This document shows, in pieces, positions 21,221 through 45,615 of a DNA stretch of 48,036 bases. The translations under genes were made by a program, and so were the position numbers. The stretch spans positions 1 to 48,036 of the IMG/VR virus record IMGVR_UViG_3300035698_021224; one strand, 5' to 3'. Under the pieces are notes generated by a model. The model was given only the letters and a program-made list of their open reading frames with translations, ran no database searches and had not been told where the DNA came from. Position 1 is the first letter of the stretch; each line of letters begins with the position of its first letter. The DNA comes from a virus.

Positions 21221-22311
21221 GTCTTTTTTCTCCAAATCCAAATAGGTTCGACAAAAATACAATTTTTATTAATAGTGTTCCCAGGACGTTTAGATAACTG
21301 CATGCCCAAACATTTTACAAACTCAGAATCATCTAAAGTATTAATAAAAGCATTCATCGGATCAACTATATTATTCACAGTATGATTCGAGTATACATCA
21401 GAAATGTTTATTATTAAATAACCACCAGGCTTTAAGGATTTCCATGATTTTTCTAAAGTTGTAAATAAAAACTGTTCTAACCAATCATTAATTTTCTTAT
21501 ATCTAACCCAAGACTGATTGTTTTGTTGTGTATACCGTTCAATATTAAAATATGGAGGAGATGTAAATATTGTATCAAATTCATTCTCAGGGTATATCAT
21601 TTCTTCTGCGGGTGAATTAACAAACTCTGCGATCTTTCCCGTATTATATAATTCATTTTGTTGATAATATGAATTATATAAATTAAAATTAGGATCAATC
21701 CCTATGTACAATTCAGTATTATTACAGGCGTGAAAACCTACTAATCTATCCCCCCATCCTGATGAAAAATCTAAAATGCGTCTTGACTCAAATATAGTAT
21801 AAAGTGTTTTAGCTACAGAAGGTTTAAATTGAGAAGCAATGTATTTACCACCAGATAAACAATTTCGTAATACCGTGGAATTAACTTCTTTAACTTTTAA
21901 AGACCATAATGATTTTAAATAAGATCTGTGGAATTTCTTAGTATTCCAAATCCTAAAAGGACTGGGGCTATTAATAGAATCACATAAAAACCTATTCTCT
22001 TGATGAAAATAATTAGACGATTTATTACCTATAAAAGATTGTTTTATATATTTATTTGATAAAGACTTATCATATTCATAGCGTGTAAATATCTTTCCAT
22101 TTTGTATTAATTTAGTCGTATCTAAATCCTGTAATGCTTTAAAAGATTTAAAAGCTTCTTCTTTATTAATTTGAAGGTAAGGTAACTCTAAAGAAGATAA
22201 TATATTTGAAAATGCATCTACTATTTCTTCTTTAGAATACTTTTTAGTTAAATTTTGCCATTCTTCTACAGGTACATTTATTTGATTATTGTTAATATAT
22301 TTAGACAGCAT
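21217..22311 (-). CDS. DNA methyltransferase (N4/N6 type)
   Basis: This 364-aa protein has the AdoMet-binding motif I at residues 179-187 (ILDFSSGWG) with the acidic GIDP of motif II at ~204-207. Catalytic motif IV is TSPPYF at 250-255. The order I-then-IV and the TSPPY form point to an amino-methyltransferase acting on DNA, with N4-cytosine or N6-adenine both possible. The N-terminal ~140 residues may select the target. Its ATG lies 11 bp inside the end of the endonuclease gene, so the two are coupled and probably share the promoter at 23789-23817. It could protect phage DNA from host restriction, or mask the site of its partner endonuclease. Confidence 0.8.
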   Translation of the reverse strand: MLSKYINNNQINVPVEEWQNLTKKYSKEEIVDAFSNILSSLELPYLQINKEEAFKSFKALQDLDTTKLIQNGKIFTRYEYDKSLSNKYIKQSFIGNKSSNYFHQENRFLCDSINSPSPFRIWNTKKFHRSYLKSLWSLKVKEVNSTVLRNCLSGGKYIASQFKPSVAKTLYTIFESRRILDFSSGWGDRLVGFHACNNTELYIGIDPNFNLYNSYYQQNELYNTGKIAEFVNSPAEEMIYPENEFDTIFTSPPYFNIERYTQQNNQSWVRYKKINDWLEQFLFTTLEKSWKSLKPGGYLIINISDVYSNHTVNNIVDPMNAFINTLDDSEFVKCLGMQLSKRPGNTINKNCIFVEPIWIWRKKT

Positions 22312-23782
22312 TGATGAATTTTACCATGGTGGGTTTAGAAACATTATATTTATCAGCTATCTCAGGTATTGAAACACCATCCCTATACAAATCAAATATT
22401 TTATCAGGATCTAATAATTTATGTAATTCCTCTACTTTATCAAATTTAATCTTCTTGCGTTCTAAATAAATAGTTGCATTTTTATACAGAAATTCACTAA
22501 TCCTGGTTAATTGATGACTACCTCCATAACTTAATATATAAATATTTTTAACAGGAGATATTTTTGTTTTTTCTAAATTACAATTCTCCATTAAAATTTC
22601 TTGCACACGAGTCAGAAATTCTAGTGTTCCCGCTAATGAAAATGAATGACTTATGCTACCATCTCCATCAAAATAACCAAGAATGAAGGAAGATTGTAAG
22701 TCTTCGTTTAACCATGTAGGAAATGTTAATATTTTTGTTTTATTAGGAACTAACCCTAATGAAACTAATTGTGTATGCATATACTTACTATAACATGCAA
22801 GAGTAATCATTACTGTTTTAACACCTTGTCTTTTATCTGCATATCTCGATAAAGGAATATTTGTACCTAACAAAATAGCAAATTTTTCTAAAATAGATTG
22901 ATCTCGTTCATGTAAAGATAACCGAATTGCATTAGATCGACTTGATAAATTTCCATCTGCGTAAAGAAATCCTAAAAAATAAGCTTTTTCTTGTGTATCG
23001 ATATTATCAAAATAATTCTCATTTAATGAATATTTCCTTCTAGATTGAGAAGAATCTCTTCGAGAGATTTTATGCTTTTCTAAAATATCAATAATAGACC
23101 CGACCGAACAATTATAATCTTTAGCTATTTTTGGAGAGCTTTTACCTGCAACATATATATCTACTATAATTTTTTCTTCTACTTCTTCTGGTACATTAAG
23201 ATATTTTTTAATCTTAATATTATGTTTGTGTAACAAATAAGAAATAGCTTGATTAGATACATTATATTGTTTGGCTAAAGCATAAGTAGATAATCCTTTA
23301 TCGTATTTATCAATAATTTCTTGAGCTTGATCTTGTATTTTGGATGTTCTCATTTTTACATTTTTCTTAACTAAAAATCGTCTAATGGTATCAGGGCTTG
23401 CTTTGAATTGTTTAGATATTGCTACTGAACTTAATCCGGAATTATATAATGCTATAATTCTATCACTATGATCTTCTAATGAAGCAGAAACATTTTTTTT
23501 AATAATAATATTATTTTTTTTAAGAATTCTAAAAATAGATGTTTTAGAAAAGGGTAATATATTAACTATCTGATCTGATGTTTTTCCTGATTGATAAAGG
23601 TTAATAATTTCATTTTCATCTTGTCTTGTTATTGTCATTGGAATAGAATCAACTTGGGATTTAATTTTGATGTTATTAGTTTTTAATATATGAGTGATTT
23701 TTTCCCGACTCATATCAAACTCATTACTTAATGAGCGAATTGATTGACCTTCTTCATATTGTTTTATTATTTTTATATCCAT
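22301..23782 (-). CDS. LAGLIDADG homing endonuclease with six HTH repeats
   Basis: This 493-aa protein carries five tandem ~40-aa helix-turn-helix units at residues ~3-41, 56-95, 106-145, 154-192 and 203-242, then a two-motif LAGLIDADG nuclease (YFLGFLYADG 268-277; FILGYFDGDG 366-375). A sixth HTH unit lies at ~458-493. Each HTH follows I-x-x-x-Y-x-x-G-x-S-x-x-x-I-A, then a second helix and K-x-x-x-I-K. Both catalytic Asp residues are present. It is free-standing, with no sign of an intron or intein in the capsid gene next door. The promoter TTGACA-N17-TATATT ends 6 bp from ATG 23782, so the message is probably leaderless. The start is supported because the first HTH begins at residue 3. Confidence 0.85.
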   Translation of the reverse strand: MDIKIIKQYEEGQSIRSLSNEFDMSREKITHILKTNNIKIKSQVDSIPMTITRQDENEIINLYQSGKTSDQIVNILPFSKTSIFRILKKNNIIIKKNVSASLEDHSDRIIALYNSGLSSVAISKQFKASPDTIRRFLVKKNVKMRTSKIQDQAQEIIDKYDKGLSTYALAKQYNVSNQAISYLLHKHNIKIKKYLNVPEEVEEKIIVDIYVAGKSSPKIAKDYNCSVGSIIDILEKHKISRRDSSQSRRKYSLNENYFDNIDTQEKAYFLGFLYADGNLSSRSNAIRLSLHERDQSILEKFAILLGTNIPLSRYADKRQGVKTVMITLACYSKYMHTQLVSLGLVPNKTKILTFPTWLNEDLQSSFILGYFDGDGSISHSFSLAGTLEFLTRVQEILMENCNLEKTKISPVKNIYILSYGGSHQLTRISEFLYKNATIYLERKKIKFDKVEELHKLLDPDKIFDLYRDGVSIPEIADKYNVSKPTMVKFINAV

Positions 23783-25918: not shown

Positions 25919-27994
25919 TTAGTATCCTCTACGCTCTCGTTCAACTGTTTGCCAATAGGATTTATATTCTTCTTTTCTAGAACCACTGACTTTAGAACCT
26001 CTAAGAGAAACGGATTCGCTTGCAGTCTTTCCCCTGGCATCTTCATTGTTCTCTACAGAATCAATATTAGTTGCTTCTTTAACTTTAAATTCTTTCACAA
26101 AAGTTGCTATTTTTACAAATTCATCTTTATTTTTAGTCATAAAAGTACCGAAAGCTTCTTTCATAATAGCTTGTTGGGATTTTTCATAACCATCAATATA
26201 AGAGTTATGTACTATTGTACCAGCTGTTTCTTGATCAATACCTGCTTCCACCATATTAGCTACTAGAGCATTTTTTAGTGGGTCAGCGATTAGTCCTTTC
26301 AACTGTTGTTGTGAGGCTAGTTCTACAGAAAGTTTAGCTTTAGCGGAAGTATCCTCTATACTATACTTTCTTAGTTTTTCAGCTACTTCTACAGAAACTT
26401 TATCTTTGCCTTTAGTACCAGTACCATTAGTATAAGAGAGATCTTTCTGACCGATATCACCATGATTCAGATTTTCATTATCTTTATCAGTTACAGGTTG
26501 ACCTTTTATTTCTGAGTTTGCGGTAGCTGCTTGATCTTTAGCTGTCTGTGCATTGATATTATCAACACCAGGAATAGGCTTAATTTGTTCTTTAAAAGGA
26601 TAAAGATTAGCTTCTTTCCCATCTCTGTCTTCAGCTGCTTTAAGTTTTGCAATACGATCTTTAACACGATCAATCAATTCTTTAGCAGATATATTATTAA
26701 GATCAACAGATGCATCTTTATCTTTTTTATCTTCTTTTTTATCTTTTTTGTCGTCTTTGTCTTTCTTATCTTTTTTGTCATCTTTATCTTCTTTTTTCTC
26801 GTCTTTATCATCATCGTCTTTCTTATCTTTTTTCTTAAAGAAAGGAAATTCTCCGGCAATAATTTTACGTCCTTCAACTAGAGAAGCTTTAAGATCACCA
26901 ATCATTGAAGTACCAGAATCCATTTTATCTTCTAGCATATCAGCATCACCAACATCTATATCAGTATCTTCCAATGCGTCTGAACCTGAGCCTACTTCGT
27001 CTTTAATCTCTTTGACATCATTTTTAATATCATCAAGAATATCTTTAACTTCTTCTAATGTAGTTTCTTCCAAACCTTCATCTAGATCATCACCAAGATC
27101 ATCAAGATCATTGCCCATATCAGAACCCATATCAGCATCTATACCAGCATCAGCATCACCAATATCATCTCCAAAAGCTGCTTGTTTCAAAGAAACTACT
27201 CCTGCATATTTAAGAACTGCATTATTGTATTTCTTAACATCAGTTTTAGATTTTCTAATTAGTACGGACAATTTAGAAATAATTGCTTTTACGTCATTTG
27301 ACTCTTCTACTAGAGTCCCATCTTTTATAATTATCTTATTAGACATTATACTACCTCTTGTTAATTTATTATTATACAGATATACATCTGATTTTGTCTT
27401 AGATATTTTAGGAGGTGGTCCTCCCGTAGGTGGTAAAGGAATGTCCCCACCCATTTCTTCTTCAGTTATTTCTATAGGATATTTCTTCTTTCTAGCTACA
27501 TCTTTTTTAGAATCTTCTGAATCTTCTTTAGCCTTTAAAGTATCTATATTATCATGTACTTTTAAAATAGTTTTTTCTAGTCCATTATCTTTAATCATGC
27601 TAATTAATTTTGTTAAAAATTCTTTAACAGGTAATTTTACTAAATGAGCTAAAAGCCTTAATCTATCTTCAGGCCAGTCTTTAGATAATAAAGCATCTAT
27701 TATATCAAGATCAGTTTCAGTTTTTTCATCAGTTTCACAAATTTGAGTTATATCTTTAATTAAAGTATCTATGCTATCTAAATCTAATTGAGTTTTAGGA
27801 TCTATAACACCCTCTTCAGCTCCAGGAGGTCCTAGGGGTTTTCCTGGCATACCTGGGGGTGGTGGCGGAGATCCCCCTCCCCCTATAGGTGGAGGAACTC
27901 CTTTTCCTGGGTTAGGAGGAGTTTTGCTCCCTGGTCCTGAATCAGGGACACTCATATCAGGAGGATTTAAACTATCTGGTGTAGGTCCTGCCAA
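25919..27994 (-). CDS. Scaffold / prohead core protein (691 aa)
   Basis: It is located directly upstream of decoration and capsid genes. Residues ~1-65 form a Pro/Gly tract and ~70-160 are helical and acidic. Residues ~285-370 are extremely Asp/Glu-rich, and ~385-425 a Lys/Asp block (KKDDDDKDEKKEDKDDKK). The C-terminus is helical, ending EEYKSYWQTVERERRGY. Charged, low-complexity, helical proteins before the capsid gene are typical scaffolds, which are removed by the protease on maturation. A ribosome site (AAGAGGT) precedes an in-frame ATG at 27346 (residue 217), so a 475-aa internal product is plausible. A fusion of two formerly separate genes would look the same. Confidence 0.65.
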   Translation of the reverse strand: MAGPTPDSLNPPDMSVPDSGPGSKTPPNPGKGVPPPIGGGGSPPPPPGMPGKPLGPPGAEEGVIDPKTQLDLDSIDTLIKDITQICETDEKTETDLDIIDALLSKDWPEDRLRLLAHLVKLPVKEFLTKLISMIKDNGLEKTILKVHDNIDTLKAKEDSEDSKKDVARKKKYPIEITEEEMGGDIPLPPTGGPPPKISKTKSDVYLYNNKLTRGSIMSNKIIIKDGTLVEESNDVKAIISKLSVLIRKSKTDVKKYNNAVLKYAGVVSLKQAAFGDDIGDADAGIDADMGSDMGNDLDDLGDDLDEGLEETTLEEVKDILDDIKNDVKEIKDEVGSGSDALEDTDIDVGDADMLEDKMDSGTSMIGDLKASLVEGRKIIAGEFPFFKKKDKKDDDDKDEKKEDKDDKKDKKDKDDKKDKKEDKKDKDASVDLNNISAKELIDRVKDRIAKLKAAEDRDGKEANLYPFKEQIKPIPGVDNINAQTAKDQAATANSEIKGQPVTDKDNENLNHGDIGQKDLSYTNGTGTKGKDKVSVEVAEKLRKYSIEDTSAKAKLSVELASQQQLKGLIADPLKNALVANMVEAGIDQETAGTIVHNSYIDGYEKSQQAIMKEAFGTFMTKNKDEFVKIATFVKEFKVKEATNIDSVENNEDARGKTASESVSLRGSKVSGSRKEEYKSYWQTVERERRGY
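27346..27361 (-). promoter_or_regulatory. Internal ribosome site and start in the scaffold gene
   Basis: On the minus strand AAGAGGTAGTATA precedes the in-frame ATG at 27346, followed by MSNKIIIKDGTLVEES. The sequence changes here from a Pro-rich and helical part to the acidic core. Nested scaffold products from internal starts are known in other phages (lambda C/Nu3). Confidence 0.5.
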
Positions 27995-42757: not shown

Positions 42758-43519
42758 TTATACCTTAGATTCTAATAAATCTATAAGATCTTCTAACTCA
42801 ATTAATTCATGACGAGCTTCAGATATAATATCACTAACAGTTGATAAATCATCCCCATCATCATCATCCATGTCTTCGTCTATATCTTCTATGTCTTCGT
42901 CAATATCATCATCAGTATCTTCTAAATTATCTAAATCAATTACTTCTATACCTTCATTACAAGGACTATCTAAAACATCTTCGTCATCTGGTTCCATAGA
43001 AATCTCTGCACTAGGTTCTGAAGGATCTATCATATCTCCTCCAATTTCCGGTAAAATTTCTTCAATTAATTTTTTAAATTCTTTCAAAGGAATTTCTTGT
43101 ACAGACATAAAATCCGCTGTTTTAGTAATATCTTGATTAGTAGATAATTTATATTTATCAGAATAATCTTCAACATCATCATACAAAGCCACTTCTTTTG
43201 GTTTGTTTGTAAATGTTAGTTTATCGGGATGACTATTATAGTAACCTTTAGAAAAATTATCAGCTATTCGAAGAAATACATCAACTTTCCCATCAGAGGT
43301 CACTGCTATTTTATCAGCTATTTTAACCGAAGTAGAAGGATATTTCTCATGAAAGATTCTAGCAGCTACTTTTTCAAATGGTTGTTGATCTATAAAATCT
43401 CTGTTAAAAATACCTTTAGAATCGGTACGTAACCACTTGTATAAACCTAAATCAGCTATATCTTCCTTTGTAAAAGAAACCATACCCATCTTTGAATTAA
43501 TTTTTATTATATTTGGCAT
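42758..43519 (-). CDS. Acidic protein opening the late block (253 aa)
   Basis: It begins MPNIIKINSKMGMVSFTKED, partly like the KINSNT start of other proteins here. The middle (VAARIFHEKYPSTSVKIADK, VDVFLRIADNFSKGYYNS) looks folded. Residues ~165-230 are a very acidic run (DDDIDEDIEDIDEDMDDDDG), and the end is helical. It is the first gene of the leftward block and is preceded by CGAGGT. A role in the prohead core or in regulation is possible but unknown. Confidence 0.55.
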   Translation of the reverse strand: MPNIIKINSKMGMVSFTKEDIADLGLYKWLRTDSKGIFNRDFIDQQPFEKVAARIFHEKYPSTSVKIADKIAVTSDGKVDVFLRIADNFSKGYYNSHPDKLTFTNKPKEVALYDDVEDYSDKYKLSTNQDITKTADFMSVQEIPLKEFKKLIEEILPEIGGDMIDPSEPSAEISMEPDDEDVLDSPCNEGIEVIDLDNLEDTDDDIDEDIEDIDEDMDDDDGDDLSTVSDIISEARHELIELEDLIDLLESKV

Positions 43520-43697
43520 AAGAAACCTCGTTAGTATAATTGCGAAAGTAATTAAAAACTTACAATTATAATATTGCCTAATATTTAACTTTTTTTAACC
43601 TAAAATAATAAAAAATCCTGTAACTAAAAAATAACAATTGACAGAAGATCCTACATTATATAAATAAAATAACATAAATTAAAATAAGGATTACTAT
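43520..43697. promoter_or_regulatory. Divergent control region between late and early blocks
   Basis: The 178-bp AT-rich gap holds the rightward early promoter TTGACA (43638-43643), best paired with TATAAA at 43659-43664 (15-bp spacer), or TAAATA at 17 bp. It lacks the TATATT -10 seen in the three insertion promoters. For the leftward block, TATAAT on the minus strand lies in ATATTATAATTG, with no good -35 box. No late leader of the 25.8/20.8 kb kind is present. Confidence 0.55.
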
Positions 43698-44675
43698 ATG
43701 TCAATAATAAGAGTAACAAAGAATGCTAATTACACTACTATCAGTAACACCCATTTAAATGACAAAACACTAAGTTGGAAAGATAAAGGATTACTAACAT
43801 ATATGTTAAGTCTTCCTAATGATTGGGAATTTTATGCTAAAGATTTAAATTATAGATCAAAAGATGGTAAAGATTCTACAAACAATGCTTTAAAAGAGCT
43901 AATCAAAACAGGTTATGTTTCCCGGAAATTTAAAACTAAAACAAATAACTCTAATGTAGGAATGTATAAAGGTTATGATTACACAGTTTTTGAGGTTCCT
44001 CAAAGGCACATTGCCGTTGCGGAAAACCCGCATCGGGAAAACCGCATCGGAAAACCCGCTTCGGAAAACCCGCAACTACTAAATACTAATATACTAAGAC
44101 CTGATTCTCTATATACTGAAAAACTAAAAGAAAAAAAAGGATATAAAAAAAAGGATATGAAATTCCCTTTAGAAAGTCTTAAGATCTTAAAAAATTTAAA
44201 AAATGAAAAATTACAAGATTTTTTGAATTTGCACTTTAAAAGAATACATACACCTGTTATACAGTTAATCATCGATTCAAGTACTTCAGAAGAGCAAGCT
44301 CTTAAATTTTTTAGCTATATCGTAAATACTTACTCATTAGACACAATACAACAAAGTTTATTAGAAATAAAAGAAAAGTTAGATCAAGGAATCATGACAT
44401 CCGTTAACCTATCATATATCAAAACATCCCTTAAAACTATAAATAATAAAAATAAACAAAAAATTAAAAAACAAACTAATAATCTAATTATACCTAATAA
44501 ATTAAGAGAAATACCTAATCTAACACTCGAACAAAAAAAATATTTCAATACGGATGAGAAAAAATATTTAATATATGAGTATGAATGTGATTGTGGTCAT
44601 ATAACAGATGGTTTTTCTTCTAGCTGTAGTCAATGTGGTTGCATCTTTGATTGGAGGAGTTTAAATAATGCCTAG
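43698..44675 (+). CDS. Replication-initiator-like winged-helix protein with zinc ribbon (325 aa)
   Basis: The N-terminal ~100 residues (ISNTHLNDKTLSWKDKGLLT, YMLSLPNDWEFYAKDL, NNALKELIKTGYVSRKFK) are the winged-helix (HTH_36-like) domain used by phage and plasmid initiators. A linker at ~105-150 contains the iteron-coded segment ENPHRENRIGKPASENPQ. A helical middle follows. The C-terminus is a zinc ribbon, C297-x-C299-x10-C310-x2-C313 with F-x-W after it. The organisation resembles lambda O: DNA-binding head, origin inside the gene, partner-binding tail. ATG 43698 has an AAGGA ribosome site. It opens the rightward operon. Confidence 0.65.
   Translation: MSIIRVTKNANYTTISNTHLNDKTLSWKDKGLLTYMLSLPNDWEFYAKDLNYRSKDGKDSTNNALKELIKTGYVSRKFKTKTNNSNVGMYKGYDYTVFEVPQRHIAVAENPHRENRIGKPASENPQLLNTNILRPDSLYTEKLKEKKGYKKKDMKFPLESLKILKNLKNEKLQDFLNLHFKRIHTPVIQLIIDSSTSEEQALKFFSYIVNTYSLDTIQQSLLEIKEKLDQGIMTSVNLSYIKTSLKTINNKNKQKIKKQTNNLIIPNKLREIPNLTLEQKKYFNTDEKKYLIYEYECDCGHITDGFSSSCSQCGCIFDWRSLNNA
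44019..44074 (+). repeat. Four tandem 14-bp iterons (candidate origin)
   Basis: The units are GCGGAAAACCCGCA, TCGGGAAAACCGCA, TCGGAAAACCCGCT and TCGGAAAACCCGCA, head to tail without gaps. They form a GC-rich island inside an otherwise AT-rich gene, and each carries a CGG/CCG dyad. AT-rich sequence with long A runs follows (44075-44160), as expected for a DNA-unwinding element. The period is not a multiple of three, so the repeat is conserved as DNA and not as protein. Confidence 0.75.
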
Positions 44676-45168
44676 AATTCATTCAAAATTTAAAAATTAT
44701 TGTTATGAAGTATTTGGTAATGAAGGTGATATTTTATATGATTTTTATTATAATTTTTTTAATCCAGGGAAATATTATGAATGTAAACATTTAAAAACAA
44801 AAAGAGTTGATCAGTACATTAAAAACATAAACTTCCTTATAAGTTTACAAGGTAAACAAGCTATTATAGATACATCAATATTATTCACAGAAAAAGATAA
44901 TGAAGGAACACTAAAATCACATAGTTTAGCTTATTTCACTGGAGCAGTTAAAAACTATAAAAAGACAAAAAAAGACTATGAAAAAGAAAATTCCTTTACA
45001 ATTAAAAGCAGATCTAAGATAATAGAACCAATTAGGTATAAAAAGATCAGAACAAAATACTCGAAAGAATTTTTAAATTGGGATTATAAATGTGTTTGTG
45101 ATGAAATTATTGATCCATGGCAAGTAACATGTCCCAAATGTTTGTCTGTTTTCAAATGGAATGTTTAA
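44668..45168 (+). CDS. Zinc-ribbon partner protein in replication operon (166 aa)
   Basis: Unknown N-terminal domain (HSKFKNYCYEVFGNEGDI, a helical AIIDTSILFTEKDNEG) and a basic linker. A C-terminal zinc ribbon, C142-x-C144-x10-C155-x2-C158 with F-K-W, shows the same spacing as the end of the initiator-like protein. The start overlaps the initiator stop by 8 bp (ATGCCTAG). The two may use the shared ribbon to bind the same partner, for example a helicase or polymerase. The function is inferred only. Confidence 0.6.
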   Translation: MPRIHSKFKNYCYEVFGNEGDILYDFYYNFFNPGKYYECKHLKTKRVDQYIKNINFLISLQGKQAIIDTSILFTEKDNEGTLKSHSLAYFTGAVKNYKKTKKDYEKENSFTIKSRSKIIEPIRYKKIRTKYSKEFLNWDYKCVCDEIIDPWQVTCPKCLSVFKWNV

Positions 45169-45615
45169 ATGTGTTTATGGGAAGATTATAATTTAACTAA
45201 TAGTATTAATGTACGAAATACTATAGTAATGAACAATTACTCTTTAGTTCTTCATGTCAGTAAAAATTATAAAAAAGTTATTAATTCTATTATAGATTTT
45301 GGTGATATCATTTCTTACGGGGTGTTTGGTTTGATTGATGCAGTCGAAAGTTATGATTTAAATTATAATACTAAATTCTCGACATATGCAGTCCCTAAAA
45401 TTAAAGGAAACATTTTAGACGAAATTAGGAAATTAAATTGGGTTCCTAATGACTTACAAACTAAAATAAATCAAATTAAACATGATATTGATTCTAGCCC
45501 ATCATTAAATAATCAATATAGTATTTTACTAAAATACGGTATTTCAGTATTAGATTATAATACTATTATCGGGAATAATTTAGTATCATTAGATAGTATG
45601 GAAGGTAGTGTATGA
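45169..45615 (+). CDS. Sigma factor with regions 2-3 but no region 4 (148 aa)
   Basis: Residues ~25-95 carry sigma region 2 of the FliA/SigD kind: FGDIISYGVFGLIDAVESYD, then TKFSTYAVPKIKGNILDEIR and KLNWVP. These bind core RNA polymerase and the -10 element. Residues ~95-145 resemble region 3 and end with NLVSLDSMEGSV. The gene stops there; the region 4 that normally reads the -35 element is absent. T4 gp55 is a known late sigma that also lacks region 4. ATG 45169 follows the upstream TAA directly, and the end overlaps the nuclease ATG. It is a candidate for switching on the late block. Confidence 0.75.
   Translation: MCLWEDYNLTNSINVRNTIVMNNYSLVLHVSKNYKKVINSIIDFGDIISYGVFGLIDAVESYDLNYNTKFSTYAVPKIKGNILDEIRKLNWVPNDLQTKINQIKHDIDSSPSLNNQYSILLKYGISVLDYNTIIGNNLVSLDSMEGSV

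Follow-up and report, generated by a model that had tools for sequence, protein, structure and literature searches.

A candidate iteron origin inside the initiator gene of a large uncultured myovirus

Introduction

The replisome organizers of the Lactococcus phages TP901-1 (ORF13 Rep) and Tuc2009 (ORF16 Rep2009) bind direct repeats that lie in their own genes and constitute the ori (PMC8965321). SPP1 gp38 also binds direct repeats in its own gene, beside an A/T-rich unwinding element, at oriL (PMC6316719). In plasmid pSK41, four Rep boxes lie centrally in rep, the ori-encoded linker can be dispensed with in trans, and the C-terminal domain of Rep binds DnaG; pPR9 joins a PF13730 HTH head, and the ori belonging to it, to the pSK41 C-terminal domain, a segment of about 500 bp comprising head and ori having been exchanged (PMC5703833). 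At the chromosomal oriC of B. subtilis, the element 5'-CTACTATTACTTCTACTA-3' has DnaA-trios on one strand, and its opposite strand has TnnT motifs bound by DnaD (PMC10201434). Here we describe a locus of related design in a viral metagenome, where an iteron array and an adjoining A/T element are embedded in the gene of a predicted initiator.

Results

Genomic context of the locus

The window (the whole stretch of DNA that was analysed) is the 48,036-bp viral metagenome record IMGVR_UViG_3300035698_021224, a single metagenomic contig that represents a genome fragment. The larger genes left of about 43.6 kb point leftward and include tail sheath, major head protein and portal. Profile matches to phrog_279 (tail sheath) and phrog_2522 (major head protein) indicate that contractile-tail genes are present, and the best match of the portal is Bacillus phage G gp14 (35%). 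The rightward arm carries, in order, the initiator (43698-44675), a small zinc-ribbon gene (gene B), a sigma-70 region-2 protein, SbcD, RNase H and SbcC.

43520..43697, no strand: divergent intergenic region, with structural genes leftward and replication genes rightward
43698..44675, + strand: initiator gene, 325 aa; winged-helix head at residues 1-100, disordered linker at 107-159, helical domain at 160-262, zinc ribbon at about 297-313

Relatives of the major head protein (68-80% identity) are found on contigs of up to 121.5 kb, so that "large myovirus" is a fair label for the fragmentary window. This designation, given in the initial annotation, is also upheld by the tail sheath, head protein and portal genes and by the 77- and 121-kb contigs of two relatives. 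Searches of the window for tRNAs and Rfam RNAs found none, and promoter and terminator scans performed no better than chance.

Several other features of the window were recorded. A 493-aa protein encoded at 22301-23782, next to the major head protein gene, contains numerous small HTH-like repeats, matches an endonuclease profile (phrog_4645) and looks like a homing endonuclease. Low-complexity repeats lie within structural-arm genes at 26713-26837 (lysine/aspartate-rich) and 42848-42910 (acidic). The short sigma-70 region-2 protein (45169-45615), beside SbcD/SbcC, suggests a phage-encoded sigma factor.

The initiator protein

Replication initiation profiles of PHROG match the initiator (phrog_4707, E 1.6e-18; phrog_428, E 6e-17; also phrog_186), with no lambda-O-type profile among its profile matches. 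Since PF13730 HTH_36 scores under its curated cut-off (E 0.008; 16.3 bits, cut-off 25), the family relation rests on the PHROG profiles and on tblastn. The latter aligns residues 1-132 with TP901-1 rep (E 9e-11), the similarity stopping at about residue 132, and relatives of the head occur in 265 GenBank phage records, TP901-1 Rep included. In the AF2 model, pLDDT exceeds 90 across much of residues 20-80 and falls below 50 for residues 113-159; on this model, residues 1-100 are confidently predicted to form a DnaD/MarR-type winged helix. The best Foldseek matches of the model are weak, to Gram-positive primosomal DnaB (E 0.017), and a search of solved structures with the sequence returned weak matches alone, mainly MarR-like.

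The C-terminal end has a zinc ribbon pattern (C-x-C ... C-x-x-C, residues ~297-313). Residues 140-325 have no match at E<=1 in 50,697 phage records. Among viral contigs, no close relative was found with the initiator protein itself, and no close relative with an identical array was found.

An iteron array and an A/T element in the linker region

The repeats lie about 320 bp from the start of the initiator gene, not at a promoter. Profile searches and the AF2 model place them between the DNA-binding head and the zinc-ribbon tail, as initially described, and the array together with the A/T element encodes the predicted-disordered linker.

44020..44074, + strand: iteron array of four 14-bp units, with dyads at 44020-44030, 44034-44044, 44048-44058 and 44062-44072
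44076..44099, + strand: A/T element CTACTAAATACTAATATACTAAGA, 3 nt past the last dyad; its first 19 nt are identical to TP901-1 rep
44131..44162, + strand: second A-rich direct repeat (AAAAAAAAGGATAT x2.3), from repeat finding; part of the A/T-rich flank, with a putative role there
44432..44491, no strand: least stable 60-bp stretch of the window, from a stability scan; adjoins the cumulative GC-skew minimum at 44550

TRF finds 3.9 copies of the 14-bp unit at 44020-44074, and the four dyads follow each other at a 14-bp step, which bears out the four head-to-tail repeats reported initially. The GC-rich island described in an AT-rich gene is equally evident, GC being 58% in the array vs 26% in the remainder of the gene. 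Three of the four copies share the exact core CGGAAAACCCGC, and the second copy (44034) reads CGGGAAAACCGC. Because this second copy, CGGGAAAACCG, differs yet keeps both arms, the invariant feature is the dyad and not the 12-mer. Indeed, CGG-N5-CCG is kept in all four units at the strict 14-bp step and occurs nowhere else on either strand of the 48,036 bp (4 seen vs 0.12 expected), the divergent region 43520-43697 containing zero copies.

The four copies lie in codon frames 1, 0, 2 and 1, that is, in three reading frames, and encode different peptides (AENPH, RENRI, IGKPA and SENPQ). The codons of the array are very rare (CGC 0.46 and CGG 0.77 per 1000). The array has the top repeat score among the short-period repeats of the window, and none of 1000 synonymous-codon permutations of the initiator gene reached its score. 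The use of three frames, the rare codons and the lack of a matching permutation are direct evidence that constraint acts on the DNA of the array rather than on the peptide. The initial argument, that a period not divisible by three betrays selection on DNA, is valid for the array of the window; it fails as a general argument, most relatives having a 15-bp period.

The A/T element pattern has a single match within the window. The A/T-rich DNA that had been noted behind the repeats is present at 44081-44200, but it is only moderately unstable (duplex stability at the 6-11th percentile), and the weakest duplex lies about 360 bp further on, at 44432-44491, a stretch that may serve as an unwinding region. 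In each of the three contigs compared, the cumulative GC-skew minimum lies within the initiator gene (44550 in the window, 50250 and 29050 in the relatives G003 and G005, see below). These minima are consistent with bidirectional replication, but divergent gene orientation confounds them, and the window shows only a shallow local dip (-121 to -150).

A common DNA grammar in the initiator family

Relatives of the initiator were gathered from viral contigs and bacterial genomes by conserved HTH peptides alone, so that the linker had no influence on which loci were taken. An alignment of 15 sequences proved too diverse for scanning, and a tighter one was used. The collection comprised 105 non-redundant loci, 98 of which had a usable gene. 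In this set, which is only roughly dereplicated and whose members are related to each other, the 200 nt past the HTH contain 179 xGG-N5-CCx' dyads vs 54.6 after codon permutation. The roughly 55 dyads that remain after permutation reflect a bias of the encoded peptides (ENP, EKP) towards such sites. Dyad density past the HTH is 9.1/kb vs 0.58/kb elsewhere in the same genes; the strict dyad is absent from 32 of the 98.

The arm bases of the dyads pair (C..G 108 and T..A 63, vs C..A 38 and T..G 18), and successive dyads stand at a 15-bp step in 79 of about 113 pairs. More than one reading frame is used in 14 of 60 multi-dyad genes, and one gene (L205) rotates through all three. The A/T element of the CTACTAAnTACTAA type is found 213 times vs 42.3 expected from codon permutation, and the gap from the last dyad to this element (CTAnTA) is 3 nt in 46 of about 68 loci. 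Moreover, when viral contigs were scanned with the iteron DNA pattern of the window, HTH initiators were found at 55 of 107 loci, with the site directly behind the HTH. HTH residues were associated with half-site type; the association was not concentrated in the recognition helix and was confounded by phylogeny, and it was left unused.

One array built on the same 14-mer was set aside from the analysis. On a GC-rich 78.6-kb contig (L004:2001-2126, IMGVR_UViG_3300032038_000051), 8-9 near-perfect tandem 14-mers (CGGAAAACCCGCTG) were found with no HTH gene on the array, an HTH_36-like match lying about 12 kb off. A stand-alone origin and a decayed initiator are candidate readings.

Initiator and array differ in close relatives

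A search based on SbcD retrieved only two contigs of the window's lineage, G003 and G005 (77 and 121 kb). In four more distant SbcD contigs and in the contig of locus L121, phrog_428 was not found. At the syntenic place, beside gene B and with SbcD nearby, G003 and G005 carry a gene matching other initiator profiles (phrog_270; phrog_6493), and O-like profiles match the initiators of the relatives. These genes have arrays of their own: that of G003 consists of 3.4 units of 23 bp with 12-bp TACAGAGATTAC repeats behind them, and that of G005 of five units of the ACTTCACCAAACGGTGAAGTC type. At all lags, no codon permutation out of 1000 matched either array; with non-triplet lags only, the G005 array is a near tie (14.0 vs a permutation maximum of 13.5). 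In both relatives (L122 and L123), TACAGAGATTAC-like 12-mers encoding the peptide TEIT lie downstream of the arrays and are possibly a second type of unwinding element.

Gene B is the conserved neighbour.

44668..45168, + strand: gene B, partner protein with a helical and zinc-ribbon region, paralogous to the C-terminal half of the initiator (44115-44672)

The window's protein B matches that of G003 with a blastp E of 1e-33 and that of G005 with 4e-13, and the C-terminal half of the window's initiator matches the gene B family with E values of 1e-8 to 1e-9; the window's initiator and its own B match with E 2e-8. Gene B is separate in G003 and fused to the initiator in G005, where the fusion protein is 591 aa long and has a second zinc ribbon (L123:187-1962). 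Among 50,697 phage records, gene B has no match outside the window's lineage, and a fold search with it gave no match.

The zinc-ribbon end is common to all the initiators; outside it, similarity between the window's initiator and those of the relatives is marginal by blastp. A scheme in which the C-terminal domain was kept and the head swapped was considered and rejected, the C-terminal half of the window's protein being closest to the gene B family. Because blastp places it there, we claim replacement at a conserved position and not a clean domain swap. Thus, across the window, G003 and G005, the place and the partner stay constant, and the initiator varies jointly with its array. The initial annotation had suggested comparing the island in related phages and had counted loss of the repeats in close relatives against an origin; in the comparison, that place was found to be taken by another initiator gene containing an array of another kind. 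Since the relatives carry another initiator with its own array, repeat loss does not apply simply as a refutation.

Discussion

Positions 44020-44099 very probably form the core of an in-gene iteron origin of the TP901-1/Tuc2009 type, judged from sequence, in a lineage of large myoviruses. The original reading of an origin inside the initiator gene is now supported by homology, by DNA-level conservation across frames and by the comparison of relatives. The array, its constraint at the DNA level, the position and grammar across the family and the differing initiator and array at the syntenic place are directly established.

Among other explanations, the one that survives best, though we judge it improbable, regards initiator plus array as a module of temperate-phage or plasmid type, secondary or acquired, that has ceased to be the main origin, or serves as such only at times, in a phage replicating mainly by recombination. 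It would fit with the otherwise usual occurrence of the HTH family in 30-70 kb phages and plasmids, with the other initiators of the relatives and with the SbcC/SbcD and RNase H genes downstream. However, all three contigs have their initiator gene first in the replication arm and at the skew minimum, although the initiators differ, and the array is intact and scores above any codon null.

That the repeats are an operator, through which the initiator controls its own or downstream transcription while replication starts elsewhere, seems to us very unlikely. MarR-type winged helices are common as repressors and sites within an operon could serve both jobs, but the sites are well inside the gene with none in the divergent region, repeats of this kind serve as ori in the TP901-1/Tuc2009 homologues, and the conserved A/T element at a fixed distance fits strand opening better. 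A mere protein feature, a low-complexity linker with no DNA role, might be suspected from the predicted disorder and from the 15-bp in-frame period of many relatives; against the three frames with their different peptides, the synonymous shuffles and the frame changes in other genes too, it is hardly credible. An assembly or repeat-expansion artefact, conceivable for a single metagenomic contig, is just as implausible, since many independent records, including isolates, show related arrays at this domain boundary.

We favour a theta-type origin core (44020-44099) that lies within the gene for the initiator acting on it, and propose the following model for binding, melting, recruitment and fork direction. 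The winged-helix head would bind the four CGG-N5-CCG dyads, whose spacing slightly exceeds one turn of the helix. Once bound, the array would strain or open the adjoining A/T element, and perhaps also the less stable duplex at 44432. A helicase loader, helicase or primase might then be recruited by the helical/zinc-ribbon part together with protein B, and forks would leave the origin in both directions. Because the encoded linker needs only flexibility, its DNA is free for a second job, and because the sites sit on the same stretch of DNA as the DNA-binding domain, the initiator could be exchanged together with its origin as one cassette. The differing initiator and array at the syntenic place in the relatives suggest that in-gene binding sites would let phages change origin specificity in one step.

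The locus thus offers a sequence-defined, testable candidate origin for a lineage of large uncultured myoviruses. The dyad array, 3-nt gap and CTACTAA element make a simple grammar that could serve for automatic origin calling in phages, prophages and plasmids with such initiators. Phage and plasmid initiators of the DnaD-like winged-helix family might even share a portable origin code, in which a covarying xGG-N5-CCx' dyad array is separated by 3 nt from a CTACTAAnTACTAA element that would correspond to the DnaA-trio/DnaD-recognition element (DRE) of bacterial chromosome origins, the whole being placed in the linker and exchanged as a unit even between close large-phage relatives; we advance this generalization tentatively, and on balance rather doubt it.

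Comparison with known systems

The A/T element of the window, CTACTAAATACTAATATACTAA, resembles CTACTATTACTTCTACTA of B. subtilis oriC, a low-complexity resemblance. Polarity relative to the initiator sites is the same, and TACT fits 5'-TnnT-3'. DnaA-trios of B. subtilis are repeated 3'-GAT-5'; loci of the window type have CTA and TACT repeats, of low complexity, at a fixed distance. The window's initiator is not an AAA+ protein, and its family is DnaD-like. We treat the resemblance to the DnaA-trio/DRE as a lead; if the A/T element works like its chromosomal counterpart, the bacterial rule for origin opening would extend to non-AAA+ phage initiators.

In lambda O, the iterons lie mid-gene and are followed by A/T-rich DNA. 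The initial annotation had likened the arrangement to the lambda O gene and to some other phage and plasmid origins; the in-gene layout is indeed shared, but the window's initiator lacks a match to the O-type N-terminal profile, and the TP901-1/Tuc2009 replisome organizers and pSK41/pPR9 Rep are the better match. Ori-lambda has four iterons (PMC10797057). The likeness to SPP1 is one of layout, SPP1 differing by a second origin, oriR, elsewhere. pPR9 is a precedent for the exchange of head and ori; pSK41 and pPR9 are, however, staphylococcal plasmids, and the pSK41 head is RepA_N, not the HTH of the window type.

The closest likeness is to TP901-1, with a homologous winged-helix head (homology was tested for TP901-1) and repeats directly behind it in the coding sequence. 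TP901-1 rep has a TGG-N5-CCA dyad (TGGCTTTTCCA) and the 19-nt A/T element identical to that of the window, in the same layout. TP901-1 and Tuc2009 differ in being small temperate phages, and they do not share the window's C-terminal domain. All together, the arrangement is already known in kind from TP901-1, Tuc2009, SPP1 and pSK41/pPR9; what sets the present case apart is its large-myovirus setting, a C-terminal domain and partner unmatched across 50,697 phage records, and the fact that relatives have another initiator and array in their place.
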